Virus record (IMG/VR): IMGVR_UViG_3300021371_000016
Span: 1 to 57,337 of that record
Strand: one strand, 5' to 3'
Length of the DNA: 57,337 nucleotides
Origin: a virus
Below, in pieces: positions 12,860-36,694 of this stretch (the stretch's first letter is position 1; each line of letters opens with the position of its first letter). Below the pieces are notes generated by a model. It saw only the letters and a list, made by a program, of their open reading frames with translations. It made no database searches and was not told where the DNA came from. The position numbers were made by a program, and so were the translations under genes.

Positions 12860-14017
12860 TTAATTTAATTTAATTTTTAATCCTGGTAACGCTTCATTTA
12901 TATCAGATATACTACTATGAACCCATAAAGTGTTCTTAGGACAGTTATCTGGAGAATATGCTTCACCATCTGTTAGATATATAAGCGCTGTATAACGCCC
13001 GTTTTCATTATAATGATTTATTACAGGTTGAAATGATGTACCACCTCTACCATGAACTTCTAAATCCTTTTTAGGATTAAATTCTTCTATAGTTCTTATT
13101 CTTGTATCACATTGTACAATTGTAATCTTATGACCAGTTTTATGCATATGGCATAATTCATTGGCAAACTCTTTAAGTTCATCATTGTTTACTGAACCTG
13201 ATGTATCTATTCCAACACATACATGATTCTTAAATTTAATCTTAAGACCCGGATTACCAGAATATCTTTTATTATACTTTCTTCTTAACTTTTTTGTATA
13301 AGCAACTGAAGAATTACCAATAAATCTTCTAAGATATCCTTTCCAATCAAACTTAGTCGGTTCAATATAGCGTAACCGTTTAATAAGATCAGCTAATTCA
13401 CCAGGTATATTTCCAGATCTTTTTTCTGTAACATCCGCATTCTCTTTAACCTGATGTTCAATCTGTTTTTGAATTAACTTTCTTTCTGCTTCAGGTATAT
13501 CTTCAAACTCTTCCCATGTAGAATGAGACCATGGAGTATTTTCATCCATTTGATTAAGCAAATTATCCAATGATGGAGATGTTCCATCTTTTTTTGCTTG
13601 TTGTAATAGATCATAGTACTCTTTAGTTCCCGCTCTCCTTGGAAGATTAAGTTCTGGAAAAGTATCTAAAGTCAATCCACCGTCAGGTAAACATAATGGA
13701 TCAATATATTGATTAATCTCAATATCTGCAGCTATATTAAATAGCTTTTTATCATTATATCTATCTCGTACTGTAAGATGACCAAATGATATATGGAGCA
13801 ACTCATGTTTTAACAATCCTTTTCTATGATCTTCTGATAAATCTGTAAAAAAATCACTGTTAATTGTAAGTTGAACTCCAATTCCATTTTTACTTACACC
13901 TGCCGTAGGTATATCATCCCTATAAACCTTATTAAGGCCAACTAAAAAAAGCCCATAAAAGGGCTCATCAAATATTAAATTTTTGCTAGTCTTTGATACT
14001 AGATCTGCTATTTTCAT
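12860..14017 (-). CDS. VWA-domain metallopeptidase-like protein (DUF2201 type)
   Basis: 385 residues. The N-terminal domain has the zinc peptidase motif HELLHISFGH (71-80). A basic linker follows, then a VWA-like domain with the MIDAS motif GIDTSGSVNN (269-278) and LIYLTDGEAY. This two-domain plan matches DUF2201/VWA-like proteins, which are regularly paired with MoxR ATPases. It overlaps the 112-residue gene by four bases. Proteolysis or complex assembly driven by MoxR is expected from the family, but the phage substrate is unknown. Confidence 0.85.
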   Translation of the reverse strand: MKIADLVSKTSKNLIFDEPFYGLFLVGLNKVYRDDIPTAGVSKNGIGVQLTINSDFFTDLSEDHRKGLLKHELLHISFGHLTVRDRYNDKKLFNIAADIEINQYIDPLCLPDGGLTLDTFPELNLPRRAGTKEYYDLLQQAKKDGTSPSLDNLLNQMDENTPWSHSTWEEFEDIPEAERKLIQKQIEHQVKENADVTEKRSGNIPGELADLIKRLRYIEPTKFDWKGYLRRFIGNSSVAYTKKLRRKYNKRYSGNPGLKIKFKNHVCVGIDTSGSVNNDELKEFANELCHMHKTGHKITIVQCDTRIRTIEEFNPKKDLEVHGRGGTSFQPVINHYNENGRYTALIYLTDGEAYSPDNCPKNTLWVHSSISDINEALPGLKIKLN

Positions 14018-31534: not shown

Positions 31535-31776
31535 TTTTTACTTTTTACTTTAACTTCTTCAAATTGTATTCTATCAGTATACTTATGCATAACCATACAT
31601 GTTAATGCTATAAATCCACAACCAATAAATGGCCATGGCATTGTGTTGATGAGTTCTGGTCCTCCAAATATTTGAATGTAAAATGGACTTACAAATGCAC
31701 ATGTAAATAATAGCGCTCCATATAATAAAACTCTTGAAGCATCAAAGCTTTTTAAATAATTAGTTCTCTTTTTCAT
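31531..31776 (-). CDS. Membrane protein, 81 aa
   Basis: Two membrane spans, VLLYGALLFTCAFVSPFYI and PWPFIGCGFIALTCMVM, with a basic N-terminus (MKKRTNYLKS) and charged tail. It overlaps the smaller membrane protein by four bases. Possibly an early modifier of the host inner membrane; no family match. Confidence 0.55.
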   Translation of the reverse strand: MKKRTNYLKSFDASRVLLYGALLFTCAFVSPFYIQIFGGPELINTMPWPFIGCGFIALTCMVMHKYTDRIQFEEVKVKSKK

Positions 31777-31876
31777 TTTTGTGTTTTTTTTTACGATAAT
31801 ACTTCTTTTTATTCCTATAGACTTGTTTTTTACAAGCCTCTTGAATTTCCTGCTGTGTTACTACAATTTTTTTCAT
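31760..31876 (-). CDS. Basic microprotein, 38 aa
   Basis: Start ATG 31874-31876, stop TAA 31760-31762. Half of it is Lys/Arg (RNKKKYYRKKKHKN). It begins MKKIVVTQQEIQEACKKQ. The stop overlaps the 81-residue gene start. Nucleic acid binding is likely from charge alone. Confidence 0.45.
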   Translation of the reverse strand: MKKIVVTQQEIQEACKKQVYRNKKKYYRKKKHKNEKEN

Positions 31877-32453: not shown

Positions 32454-32783
32454 TTATACTGATTTGACAGTCAGTTCTTGATTGTATACTATGTCTATGT
32501 AATTCTTTGGATTTTCATTAAACCACTTTAGAGTTTCAAAGAAATAATTGCTATCCATATGGTTACCACTCATTTCATCTCTCTCTAATAAGTCTCCATC
32601 TTTAATGATATACGTCAACAATCTAATTCCACAAGGATGCTTTATAAAAAGCTCATCATACGGATATTCTAATGTTGGTAAAACATGTAACTCATAGCTT
32701 GGATCAGCTATACTCTTAAAAATAGTTGGTTGATCTAATTTCATATCAAACAAATACATTGCATCTTCAAATAAATTTCTCAT
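32454..32783 (-). CDS. Hypothetical protein, 109 aa
   Basis: I choose the internal start at 32783 (MRNLFEDAMYLFDMKLDQPT). A longer frame would run into the tRNA-like element at 32807-32881. The leader is AAAACCAAACATC. The protein has an Asp/Glu-rich C-terminus and several Pro/Tyr strands, no transmembrane span. Not recognised. It lies directly 3' of the tRNA-like element, 23 bases away. Confidence 0.55.
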   Translation of the reverse strand: MRNLFEDAMYLFDMKLDQPTIFKSIADPSYELHVLPTLEYPYDELFIKHPCGIRLLTYIIKDGDLLERDEMSGNHMDSNYFFETLKWFNENPKNYIDIVYNQELTVKSV

Positions 32784-32806
32784 GATGTTTGGTTTTGGAG
32801 TGAATA

Positions 32807-32881
32807 TGGTGGCAGTAATAGGATTCGAACCTATACATTCCAGGGCCATCATAAGAGCTATCATTCCTATGTGGTACTGCC
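32807..32881 (-). tRNA. tRNA-like element with no readable anticodon arm
   Basis: On the minus strand the 75 bases have a perfect seven-pair acceptor stem (GGCAGTA with TACTGCC), a discriminator A followed by an encoded CCA, and a perfect T arm (ATAGG, TTCGAAT loop, CCTAT). The 40 bases between are the right number for a D arm, anticodon arm and variable loop, but I could not form a standard D stem or a five-pair anticodon stem with U33. It may be a decayed tRNA or a tRNA mimic that attracts RNase P or CCA processing. The amino acid is not assigned. Confidence 0.5.
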
Positions 32882-32919
32882 ATATAAATTAAAAGGCTGA
32901 GTGATTGACCTTTTATATG
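32881..32919. other. Bulged hairpin at the tRNA-like 5' end
   Basis: CATAT (32881-32885) and AAAAGG (32891-32896), split by a five-base bulge, pair with the contiguous CCTTTTATATG (32909-32919). On the minus strand it precedes the tRNA-like acceptor stem directly. It shares the one-sided bulge design of other hairpins in this block. Confidence 0.45.
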
Positions 32920-32959
32920 CAGATTGATAAGTGTTTCCACTATTATCACACACAACTAT

Positions 32960-34324
32960 TTCTAATTGTACTACACATGTTCACGGTTTGATATGTCCGC
33001 GCATAACTACTGTTGTGGATATAAATTCACGTTCATACCAACTTCCCTGCGACAGGATTAACAGGCTGCGACCTGCTAGTTAGATATTAATAGCTTCATT
33101 CACGATCTAGCTTGCGGCTATCACATGTCCCCATATTACAGAGGAATAAGAACATTGTTATACCAATGGGATCGTTAGGTCACCCACCAATAATACACAA
33201 CAGTCTCCAAACTAATTTTGCTTATAAATCTTTCTTGTTTAAGTTATATATAGCACAGGTAATAACGGAAGACGCTCGGAGTTATCATAACCATGGTTCC
33301 TTTTGAGAACTTTAGATTACAACTCCCGTCTGCTTTTGCTTGTCAAGGCTACTCGCTAACATCATACTTACACACAGGATTTCTCCTAGCACATAGTGTA
33401 TTCAGTCTAATAACAGCTTCAAGTGCGACAACACTATACTACCATTATCCAATACAATTCTTATTGACTTTTCAGTCTCAAGAGCAATGCCTGTCATGCT
33501 CTCTGTATTACTCACAAACCCGTGGGATTTATTGCTGCCGTAATACAGATATTATATTGCCATTCTATAAAATGCATAGCGAACTATACATCACAGGAAG
33601 GTTAACTACAAGCCCTTCCCATTTTATCCCATTACTGGTTTATCTTAACGTCATGATGGCTGACGAACATTTCTTTAGACACTAATGCTACCTCAAGGAT
33701 AGACATAAGTCACGGTAATGTTAAACGTTCCAAGGATTCTCACCTTAGTTCTAGTATGCTTTTCAGGTCTCACTTAACTAGAATAAAGACACGGGAAGGC
33801 AGTTAGCCTTCTTCTGTTTTGCTACGTATGTAGTGTGGTGGGTCACGATCCCACAAAAAGTTTGGTTTTCATATACTGCATGTTAAAATATCTAACTTAC
33901 TATTAAGGTTTATATTTTCTATAGGTAAGCAGTTGCCCCATTAATTATAATTCATCCAGACTACACTCCTACCCCCATAAATGAGACAACCTCCTATTTC
34001 TAGTGATTGCTTGTAGTTCGAACGTGTTTTTGGCCTGTCCAGATATACGTTGATGGGTTTACCATTCCCTTTCCTTCATCCTCATTGCAGGACTAGCCTT
34101 GGCAAGGCACTTCGTTGTTAATTAATAACAATTGCATTAAGACACGAATGTCAACGATGCTACCTGGCAGTCATTTGATAAATCAAATAGTTGTACCTGC
34201 GTTACAGAGAGGCGTTTTAAAGCAGATTTTCCAGTCATGCTGGCTCCTCGTTGCAATTGTTAATTGGATAAGCACAGAAGGGATGAGGTGATCAAATCTC
34301 AAGGCTTCTGCGCCCGTTCTTTTG
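32960..34324 (-). ncRNA. Candidate large structured RNA, block B
   Basis: About 1.36 kb without a convincing gene on either strand, with noticeably higher GC than the flanking genes (29 of 60 bases at 33481-33540, against 11 of 60 at 29401-29460). Many short perfect stems occur: 33502-33511 with 33540-33549 (10 pairs), 33393-33399 with 33431-33437, 33749-33755 with 33777-33783, 33795-33800 with 33806-33811, 34115-34120 with 34126-34131 and 34173-34179 with 34182-34188. It lies next to a tRNA-like element, the usual setting of GOLLD/ROOL giant phage RNAs. The strand is inferred from the neighbours. Group I intron or gene remnants are alternatives. Confidence 0.4.
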
Positions 34325-34618
34325 TTAATCATATGGATGCATATCACTGTCATCAAACATATCATTAATCATATCTTCTTGGAAGTTATTTCCAATGTCA
34401 TATTTAACTAACTCAGGTTTAAATTCTGAGTTGTTAGGAGCATAAAATTTCTGTGACCATATTCTAAATTCCAATTTGATATCAGGGAAAGGATAGTTAT
34501 GGTTAGACTCTTCTATACACCGAGTTCTGATATGATCAGCAAATGCTAACATATCTTTTAACGAATATTCTTTATTCATAAGCGTTAGTTTAGTGTGGTT
34601 AAAAAAGTGAGCATCCAT
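34325..34618 (-). CDS. Hypothetical protein, 97 aa
   Basis: The internal start (MNKEYSLKDMLAFADHIRTR) at 34579 may be the true one, since the first 13 residues are less protein-like. The rest is charged and helical, ending in an acidic DMFDDSDMHPYD. I have seen similar EYS/EDMxAFAxH proteins in Bacteroidota phages, without known function. It sits alone between hairpin-dense blocks. Confidence 0.5.
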   Translation of the reverse strand: MDAHFFNHTKLTLMNKEYSLKDMLAFADHIRTRCIEESNHNYPFPDIKLEFRIWSQKFYAPNNSEFKPELVKYDIGNNFQEDMINDMFDDSDMHPYD

Positions 34619-34624
34619 CTCTGA

Positions 34625-34654
34625 GGAAGCTTGTGCTAATTGGCACTTGCTTCC
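34625..34654. other. Symmetric hairpin between two genes
   Basis: GGAAGC (34625-34630) and GTGC (34633-34636), separated by TT, pair with GCAC (34643-34646) and GCTTCC (34649-34654), also separated by TT, with a six-base loop. This near-perfect palindrome is unlikely by chance in an AT-rich gap. Confidence 0.5.
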
Positions 34655-34698
34655 CCATTACGGTCAACTCACTCATTGGAATATGGTTATTCCCTTGG

Positions 34699-35043
34699 TT
34701 AGATACAATCATGCCAAGGGCTGTGGTGCGTTATCTGCCCTGTACCAGGACGATGTCTTTCAATAGAACAATCACTATTGAAATTGTAAGTGTTCAGGTT
34801 GAACCTTTTGTGAAGAAAGTTAGAAACCTTACGAGAAGGGTAGAACATATCTTTTAATGCAGAGTAACCTCTACGGTGCAACTGAATTCTCAAAAACAAC
34901 TTACAGAAAGCTTTTTGAGTAGTAATCCACTCATGTGAATTATAAGTAGAGACAATATAACTTCTCTTGAATCTTCTAAGAAGATCTTTCTTTGGCTTTA
35001 GGTCTCCTCCAAAGAGAGCTTTTATTTCATCATAATCTTCCAT
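34699..35043 (-). CDS. Hypothetical basic protein, 114 aa
   Basis: Starts MEDYDEIKALFGGDLKPKKD and becomes strongly basic (RRFKRSYIVSTYNSHEW, then FLRIQLHRRGYSALKDMF). Likely nucleic acid binding. The N-terminal two thirds look well formed; the His/Pro-rich end is less convincing. It lies between blocks A and B of hairpin-dense DNA. Not recognised. Confidence 0.5.
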   Translation of the reverse strand: MEDYDEIKALFGGDLKPKKDLLRRFKRSYIVSTYNSHEWITTQKAFCKLFLRIQLHRRGYSALKDMFYPSRKVSNFLHKRFNLNTYNFNSDCSIERHRPGTGQITHHSPWHDCI

Positions 35044-35073
35044 AGTAAGTGGTTTAAGGTTAATTAATGGTGT

Positions 35074-35128
35074 CCAAGAGTCAGTTTAGCTAGATTCTCC
35101 CAGCATAGGACTGTCCCCTAACTCTTGG
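35074..35128. other. Stem-closed small structured element
   Basis: CCAAGAGT (35074-35081) pairs perfectly with ACTCTTGG (35121-35128), enclosing 39 bases with further weak hairpins (for example a GCTGG/CTAGC-like stem with wobble pairs). On the plus strand a T-rich stretch follows. It may be part of the structured region or a small RNA. Confidence 0.35.
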
Positions 35129-35196
35129 CAATTTTGTCTTTAGATTTTTTCTATTCCCAGGTACTAAGACATTTAACCTATAGGTAAGTACTCTTC

Positions 35197-35319
35197 TTAG
35201 ATAGATAATACTACATGTAAGCCATAAGCAAACATAGTAGAGACTCCCATCATAAGAATTGCAATTGATAAGTGTGCAATGTTCTTCATTGTTGTGGTAT
35301 TAGAGTGGATTGTAGCCAT
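35197..35319 (-). CDS. Small membrane protein, 40 aa
   Basis: Start ATG 35317-35319, stop 35197-35199. The sequence starts MATIHSNTTTMKNIAHLSIA and continues as a single hydrophobic span (ILMMGVSTMFAYGLHVV). Too short for certainty, but the span is clear. It may be an independent early gene. Confidence 0.4.
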   Translation of the reverse strand: MATIHSNTTTMKNIAHLSIAILMMGVSTMFAYGLHVVLSI

Positions 35320-35379
35320 ATATATAATTAGACAGCAACAATTGATTATGATTCATACTACCCATGAATCTAGGGTTTA

Positions 35380-35890
35380 TTTGGGTCACCCATAAAACAA
35401 TAAACGCACGTACAAATAGTTAGTAGCGGTCTAGTATTTTAAAAGTTTAAGGGCTTAAGTGCTAAAGTAAGCACCAATATGGGTATTTATCCGCTCTTAT
35501 GAACGGATAACCCAATAGTTGAGAACTTTAGGCGTTCTCATTGCGAACCCATTCCAATGGAGTTACACAGCCGTTAGATCCTATATACATAGTTCTTGTG
35601 GTATTAAGTTAGAAACTATAATCCGTACTGCAACGTATAAGCGCTATCACCTGCTTATAGGTTGCAATGAGTGGATTTAATGATTAGCATGTGTTGACGG
35701 TATCTTTCTCTACCAGATGTTTAACGTCACTCTCTGAACCCTGTCAATATAGTTTACAACTACATGCTATTAGTCAGTAATGTGGTGCACTACACCGCTA
35801 TTTTACGTGGGCTCCTCGTCCCCGTAACTATAGTCAGTGTAGTGTAGCAAAGTCCAATACTTCCGCCTACTTCCTTCAGCGCAGTATTGG
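35380..35890 (-). ncRNA. Candidate large structured RNA, block A
   Basis: About 0.5 kb without a gene, packed with strong stems: TGGGT plus TATCCG (35480-35493, three-base bulge) with 35504-35514; TGAGAAC/GTTCTCA (35520-35526, 35534-35540); GCAAC and TATAAGC (35630-35642) with 35653-35665, 12 pairs and one mismatch; CACTACAC/GTGTAGTG (35788-35795, 35837-35844) enclosing TTACG-GGG/CCC-CGTAA (35803-35827); CCAATACT/AGTATTGG (35854-35861, 35883-35890). The line 35821-35880 has 28 G/C of 60. The density of long perfect stems is strong evidence of RNA structure. The strand is inferred from the neighbours; GOLLD/ROOL-type RNA is a hypothesis. Confidence 0.5.
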
Positions 35891-35907
35891 TTGGCCTCTA
35901 AGCCTGA

Positions 35908-36180
35908 TTACAACACTAGCTCACCGAGCACGTTGTTATCAGATGGCTTAGAAACAAGTAAAAACGTTTCACCGTTTTCGCTTGTGACCTCTGAGACTGT
36001 AAGCTCCAGAGATAAGGCCTCAACCTTATCACTGATAGCGCCAGTCACGGACGTGCCTGGGACAGCAAAGAAGCGTTTACCGGTCTTTGGGGAACGGATG
36101 ATTTGCATCTTTGATGCGCCCTGATCACGTAAGAAGTCGGCAATTGGCATTGTGGTTCCCCACGTCAATTTCCTTTCCAT
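35908..36180 (-). CDS. First early gene, GC-rich, conserved phage protein
   Basis: 90 residues. MERKLTWGTTMPIADFLRDQ is followed by MQIIRSPKTGKRFFAVPGTS and a beta-like remainder, ending KPSDNNVLGELVL. Its codon use is much more GC-rich than other early genes, as in highly expressed or recently acquired genes. It is the first gene of the minus-strand block and starts near the divergent control region, so it is probably the first early transcript. I recall similar short proteins in Bacteroidota phages but know no function. Confidence 0.6.
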   Translation of the reverse strand: MERKLTWGTTMPIADFLRDQGASKMQIIRSPKTGKRFFAVPGTSVTGAISDKVEALSLELTVSEVTSENGETFLLVSKPSDNNVLGELVL

Positions 36181-36376
36181 ATGAGTCTTGCGAATTAGTT
36201 ATTGAGTTATTTAACGGGGATCCCCCCAACTCAAAAATTAGGCGGGGAGCAGAATGCTAGGACCCTATGCACATGCAACACACACATTTTTTAAATTAGG
36301 GAGGGGGTATATTTTTGAAAGGAAACGTTGGGGGGCTGGACAGAAATACGTATATTACTATATAAAGAAGATACTC
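36181..36376. promoter_or_regulatory. Divergent control region with G-tracts; possible origin
   Basis: This 196-base gap separates the two divergent transcription blocks. It contains TTGAGTT (36202-36208) and AACTCAA (36228-36234) enclosing GGGGATCCCC (36216-36225), and G-runs on the plus strand (36244-36247, 36299-36301, 36303-36307, 36330-36335) in otherwise AT-rich DNA. Early and late promoters are expected here. An origin or packaging site is possible from the strand asymmetry but not shown. Confidence 0.45.
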
Positions 36377-36694
36377 ATGGAAGAAAGAGAAGAACCAGAA
36401 GATTACATTGAAGGTCTATCTGATGCGGAGAGAATGGCTTTAGAACGTAGACTGCTTAAGACTGCATATGATAATTCATTTGAGGTTTTGATGAAGAACA
36501 TAACATTTGAGGAACTATTGGAAGATGGGGGTGGTTCTGCATTTAGTACTCTACTTGCATATGACCCGCAAAGAGGAATTAGGAAAGATGAATTAAAATC
36601 AATTATTGATTATTACGTGAGCCTGGATGAGTCTGAGTATTATCTAAGGTGTGCAAGATTACAAAAGTTAATGGAAGAAAAATATCCAGAATAA
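36377..36694 (+). CDS. Hypothetical protein, 105 aa
   Basis: I set the start at ATG 36377 (MEEREEPEDYIEGLSDAERM). An upstream in-frame ATG at 36254 would add an untypical basic/Tyr-rich leader from the control region. The protein is acidic and helical. The stop codon TAA overlaps the next ATG (TAATG). Function unknown; it opens the late strand. Confidence 0.6.
   Translation: MEEREEPEDYIEGLSDAERMALERRLLKTAYDNSFEVLMKNITFEELLEDGGGSAFSTLLAYDPQRGIRKDELKSIIDYYVSLDESEYYLRCARLQKLMEEKYPE

Follow-up and report, generated by a model that had tools for sequence, protein, structure and literature searches.

On balance, the block flagged at positions 35,380 to 35,890 is probably an intercistronic spacer of a crAss-like phage, on a transcript that runs leftward and is probably early; in this spacer a 20-codon micro-ORF lies among stable, clade-specific hairpins that would stop, process or protect the transcript. 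The giant RNA that a first-pass annotation had looked for there, a divergent GOLLD, is encoded by the same strand, 1.6 kb farther downstream. The window, by which we mean the whole stretch of DNA analysed, comprises the 57,337 bases of one IMG/VR virus record, and its portal and head proteins match those of crAss-like phages, including Cellulophaga phi17:2, csAssE-Sib and a Leptolyngbya phage; judged from sequence, the phage is itself crAss-like. Genes run leftward to the left of about 36.2 kb and rightward to the right of it, GC skew tracks this direction and switches sign around 35 kb, and from 36180 to 32454 every recognisable gene is on the minus strand.

The block is on the leftward side, directly 3' of a 90-aa gene (35908-36180, minus strand) that is the first in the leftward operon, and its bounds on the minus strand are this gene and the motif TATATATATGGCTA (35313-35326). 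Homologues of the 90-aa protein were identified in a near-identical phage, L002 (87%), and in the more distant L003 (44%) and G017 (42%, where the protein has 85 aa), and neither Pfam nor PHROGs gave a family match; the predicted model, with a mean pLDDT of 79, has no significant fold match in the PDB. Just before this gene, on the same strand, is the divergent intergenic region with a conserved leader (36181-36376; GGGTCCTASCATTCTGCTCCCC ... GAGTT-GGGG..CCCC-AACTC stem), which differs from L002 by 0.5% substitutions, matches L007 at 75% over about 200 nt, also matches L018-L021 and is present in G017 (locus L111, about 13350-13520). This leader is highly conserved and forms a GC-rich hairpin, and its outer stem, read by eye as AAGTTTT/AAAACTT in L011, appears to covary there. 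At the other end of the block, a 40-aa ORF starts at the motif TATATATATGGCTA, which, in about 1 Mb of loci scanned, was found only in this island (window and L002, L003, L016 and G017). In the form TATATA[CT]ATGGCTA it occurs once per island in four lineages, and since the ORFs starting there have unrelated lengths (40, 9, 13 and 9 codons), the motif may act as a signal, promoter-like or in the RNA, and not as the start of a conserved peptide.

The block had been described as free of genes, a description that fails at 35590-35528 on the minus strand, where an ORF of 20 codons, MYIGSNGCVTPLEWVRNENA*, is found, its stop codon overlapped by a 7-bp perfect hairpin, TGAGAAC/GTTCTCA (35520-35540, minus strand). 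Orthologues of this micro-ORF occupy the same position in L002, L003 (MLVESNGCVTPIDWTTNPNS), G017 (MYVEYNGCVTDPSWVRNENA; a record of 114,909 bases) and L011 (MKNLVIVNGCVTPQSWLINDNS), following the first leftward gene in the last three. Across four lineages the ORF has 20, 20, 20 and 22 codons, with start, stop, length and residues conserved in the signature NGCVT..W..N.N[AS]-stop. Synonymous codon changes were found in six of the eight invariant columns, the exceptions being Cys, whose codon is TGT throughout, and Trp, with its one codon. Of six pairwise comparisons, five had fewer nonsynonymous than synonymous changes per site, and in the sixth the two were equal. The exact pattern occurs once in each record that carries it and is absent from the reversed control. 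On 20 codons such numbers are suggestive, and because position, length and stop are also fixed, the case for coding is a convincing one; we propose that the micro-ORF defines a new family of small proteins of 20 aa. Like other small phage proteins to which no function is assigned, it is short, conserved and fixed in place with a coding signature, but it differs from them in having just 20-22 codons, in the signature itself and in the absence of any tblastn match in INPHARED. The micro-ORF was also absent from the endolysin relatives scanned (L016-L030). With TAG and TGA recoded, the block yielded no convincing ORF.

The stems reported by the first-pass annotation were indeed present. The 12-pair stem with one mismatch (35630-35665) is our hairpin 3 (35627-35668), the eight-pair stem 35788-35795/35837-35844 closes a bulged inner stem to form hairpin 2 (35788-35844; about 23 pairs with bulges, loop ACGAGGAG), and the count of 28 G+C among the 60 bases at 35821-35880 was borne out, the GC of the block being 0.40 against 0.316 for the whole window. 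Hairpin 1, CCAATACT...AGTATTGG (35854-35890), lies 17 nt past the stop codon of the 90-aa gene, and the fold also includes a domain closed by TAGCATGTAGTTG/CAACACATGCTA (35685-35769) and a hairpin TGGGTTATCCGTTC/GAGCGGATA..ACCCA (35480-35514), all of these on the minus strand. Against dinucleotide shuffles, the 588-nt region has the better fold on either strand (z of -4.54 for the minus and -5.19 for the plus strand; 0 of 100 shuffles as good), thus the strand is not set by folding alone and the minus strand is taken from gene context. Windows of 200 nt at 34501-34800 are at least equally structured for their GC, and the block is not exceptional locally. The equal folding of both strands is also what would be expected if the hairpins acted as DNA, such as in a replication origin or a cruciform where gene direction and GC skew switch, a reading with which the sign change of the skew around 35 kb and the high conservation of the divergent intergenic region are consistent. 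We consider it improbable, as the change of skew goes with that of gene direction, conservation falls in the intergenic leader and not in the block, the micro-ORF is under coding constraint, and no repeats or initiator sites were identified.

Comparison with L002 showed that hairpins 1 and 2 (35788-35890, about 100 nt) have zero changes: the stem and loop of hairpin 1 are identical, followed by TTTTTT in L002, as are 23 of 23 pairs and the loop of hairpin 2, against differences of 11% in the adjacent 90-aa gene and 18% in a nearby spacer. Few changes separate the two phages in other neighbours too (114-aa gene 2.9%, 40-aa ORF 0.8%), and since rates are uneven along the region, this invariance, which comes from one genome pair, is moderate evidence of constraint. 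Two indels between window and L002 are of whole helices: L002 is without the entire 35685-35769 domain (an alignment gap of 84 columns) and carries, inside the loop of the 35480-35514 stem, an additional domain of 40 nt, the stem itself being kept with two one-sided pair-keeping changes and none broken. A hairpin-like motif, CCTARCTTGGCAACAGAAATAGGT, is common to L003 (5558-5665) and L111 (12750-12820, minus strand) 3' of the micro-ORF, and the inserted loop of L002 has the similar GGCGACAGCAAACC. In hairpin 3, 12 of the 15 predicted pairs are kept in L002 and three are broken. The first-pass annotation had looked to covariation among homologues for support of its RNA; L002 proved to be the only close relative, and against it no double-sided compensatory change was found in the hairpins of the block.

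Apart from the micro-ORF, the block has no sequence relative beyond this one near-identical phage. The covariance search that had been suggested for GOLLD, ROOL and other families returned no Rfam match in the block at gathering or at E<=1, in scans that also took in its relatives, and blastn against INPHARED found no match. A set of candidate loci (L004, L005, L008, L009, L031-L036, L097 and L100-L102) was rejected as chance matches, and a single scan of the genome_contigs database gave chance matches only. Since the sequences of the spacer hairpins differ among lineages and the segment z at the position of the block ranges from -4.2 to +1.6 (L003 -3.8, G017 -1.5, L011 +1.6), the position is shared and the structure clade-specific. 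The main rival explanation is that the block is a separate clade-specific structured non-coding RNA of medium size, composed of hairpins 1-3 and the stems after the ORF and possibly dual-function with the micro-ORF. Such an RNA would agree with the strong fold on both strands, the identity of hairpins 1 and 2 in L002 down to their loops, the whole-helix indels, the two one-sided pair-keeping changes in the 35480-35514 stem and a GC above the genome level of an AT-rich phage, but the absence of relatives beyond L002, of an Rfam match at E<=1 and of double-sided compensation, together with the three broken pairs of hairpin 3, leaves it a real though minor chance.

We favour the spacer, which draws on the minus-strand genes throughout, the recurring gene order, the conservation of the micro-ORF, the unchanged hairpins 1 and 2, the whole-helix indels and the stems with T-rich tails found 3' of the small gene in L002, L003 and L016. 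In L003 a 10-bp stem is followed by TTTCTTTT, and in L016 GCAGGG/CCCTGC is followed by TTTCT, both just after the small gene. As in intrinsic terminators and the intercistronic hairpins of phage operons, these stems lie just past a stop codon and carry a T-tract in L002, L003 and L016, whereas the window copy has lost it, and in L002 the loops are as unchanged as the stems. Hairpin 1 of the window does not qualify as an intrinsic terminator, its T-tract being broken with ACTTTG next, and a terminator scan gave no match on the minus strand. These two points count against the spacer, as do G017, where no clear terminator follows the small gene, the weak or absent z in G017 and L011, and the conservation of loops besides stems in L002, which in this one genome pair exceeds what a simple terminator would need. 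Under the spacer reading, the block would be transcribed after the 90-aa gene in a leftward, probably early, unit, which we infer to be a single transcription unit. For the hairpins we infer a function at the RNA level: hairpin 1, as a stop that resembles a terminator or serves processing, would mark where the 90-aa message has its 3' end, and the remaining hairpins would be spacers or protective stems that set the amount of transcript reaching the micro-ORF and the downstream RNA island with GOLLD about 1.6 kb on.

The proposal of a GOLLD or ROOL type giant RNA was right about the phage and wrong about the place: a divergent GOLLD is found at about 33756-32886 on the minus strand, directly beside a tRNA-like element, but the flagged block has no Rfam match and ROOL is missing. 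GOLLD RNAs are often over 800 nt, consist of a conserved 3' and a less conserved 5' region, and are phage-encoded near tRNAs (PMC12286853). Initial detection came from comparing the gene-free remainder of the region with fetched loci, in which window 33744-33006 aligned with L079 at 69% over 757 columns; against L079 and L092 together the values are 69-72% over 757-901 columns, and about 870 nt are aligned in relatives, with the 5' half more divergent. A pattern drawn from the window/L079 alignment hit 13 viral-contig stretches, where about 0.3 would be expected by chance on our estimate, and 12 of the 13 are homologues. RF02032 matches at 32894-33327 (minus strand, model positions 1-416) with 45.7 bits and an E of 1.7e-12, the sole GOLLD match in the record, and the ordinary Rfam scan missed it because this score is below the gathering score of 150 bits. 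Several homologues, with 64-72% pairwise identity, match RF02032 over the full 416 positions at 84-118 bits (E down to 1e-33), and in an alignment of nine sequences 102 of 154 predicted pairs have changes on both sides. We assign this RNA on comparative grounds to the known GOLLD family as a divergent member, neither a new giant RNA class nor ROOL. It resembles the described GOLLDs (PMC12286853) in exceeding 800 nt, in its conserved 3' region, in lying by a tRNA-like element and in its covarying structure, but differs from them in scoring far below gathering and in its crAss-like host phage. Our literature search found no report of GOLLD in crAss-like or Bacteroidetes phages, and blastn of the giant RNA against INPHARED gave no match. 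With ROOL it has in common the notion of a large phage RNA near tRNAs; ROOL itself had no match anywhere in the window at gathering, nor at E<=1 over 32780-36400. For the flagged block a giant RNA is very improbable in spite of a phage GOLLD nearby beside a tRNA-like element, as GOLLD sits outside the block and, micro-ORF similarity apart, BLAST matched the block to none of the GOLLD-bearing loci; a giant RNA at these coordinates was rejected, unless GOLLD has a long 5' extension.

The tRNA-like element (32807-32881, minus strand), called tRNA-His by ARAGORN and scoring only 23 bits in Rfam, lies 5 nt from the aligned GOLLD end. It is 97% identical in G017 over 71 nt (L111:11832-11902(-)), where the neighbouring GOLLD is 72%, and 80% in L037 (1142-1212(+)), where an A-T to G-C change has occurred on both sides of the T-arm; acceptor and T arm are present and a normal anticodon arm is absent. 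G017 carries a second such element (L111, about 12380-12290, minus strand) in which the acceptor ATCAGTG/CACTGAT and the T-arm ATGGG-TTCGAAT-CTCAT surround an unusual centre. In L099 a Pistol ribozyme (2050-2111; 56.5 bits, above gathering) lies directly 3' of GOLLD, and it is possible that it provides a self-cleaved 3' end for it.

Taken as a whole, this is a variable island, made up of small RNAs and tiny genes, that heads the leftward operon and has the flagged block as its first part. The order of small gene, micro-ORF, 38-aa basic protein (31760-31876, minus strand; homologues in L011 and G017) and RNA island is common to the window, G017 and L011, and in G017 the full order is leader, 85-aa homologue of the 90-aa protein, micro-ORF, 38-aa basic protein, 79-aa protein, tRNA-like element, 59-aa protein and GOLLD. 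When L037 (1-1455) is set against window 32810-34260, the gene-free region is entirely different beside a next gene that is 97% identical, which points to replacement of the RNA island between phages. A 19-mer, AAGGATTGCAACCTTGTGA, occurs exactly in 53 IMG/VR viral stretches with varied neighbours on both sides, and forms the 3' portion of an RNA whose ends are constant (TACTCTCATCCAA-GCAGG ... CAAGGATTGCAACCTTG-TGAGAGTA) and whose middle varies. The middle, up to the 3' end CAAGGATTGCAACCTTGTGAGAGTA, has roughly 25-150 nt, and some loci hold two or three copies. A covariance model identified this RNA at L011:6301-6430, at three places in L079 (785-889, 1123-1242 and 1493-1585), in about 50 more loci and in the related phage L016 (1571-1728(-)), there at the matching place. 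In its outer helix six of eight pairs have double-sided changes and 0 of 500 shuffles were as good, a score that is biased upward, as the alignment was made to fit the structure and takes in a few weak matches on the reverse strand. No Rfam family matches this RNA; apparently an undescribed covarying RNA of crAss-like and other aquatic phage contigs, it may be the most novel item of this analysis. We tentatively suggest, as a rather unlikely possibility, that these crAss-like phages begin their leftward operon with a cassette site, where different structured RNAs would be placed by different phages (GOLLD, tRNA-like elements, Pistol, the undescribed RNA and, in the window, the hairpin block), and that the 20-aa peptide would work with them.

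These results correct the location of the giant RNA and show that divergent GOLLDs occur in crAss-like phages at scores below Rfam's own threshold, and that a putative 20-aa protein family has been missed by gene finders owing to its size. Because the 115-kb relative G017 has kept the genes around GOLLD, the tRNA-like element and the micro-ORF along with GOLLD itself, the RNA island lends itself to asking what role GOLLD plays.
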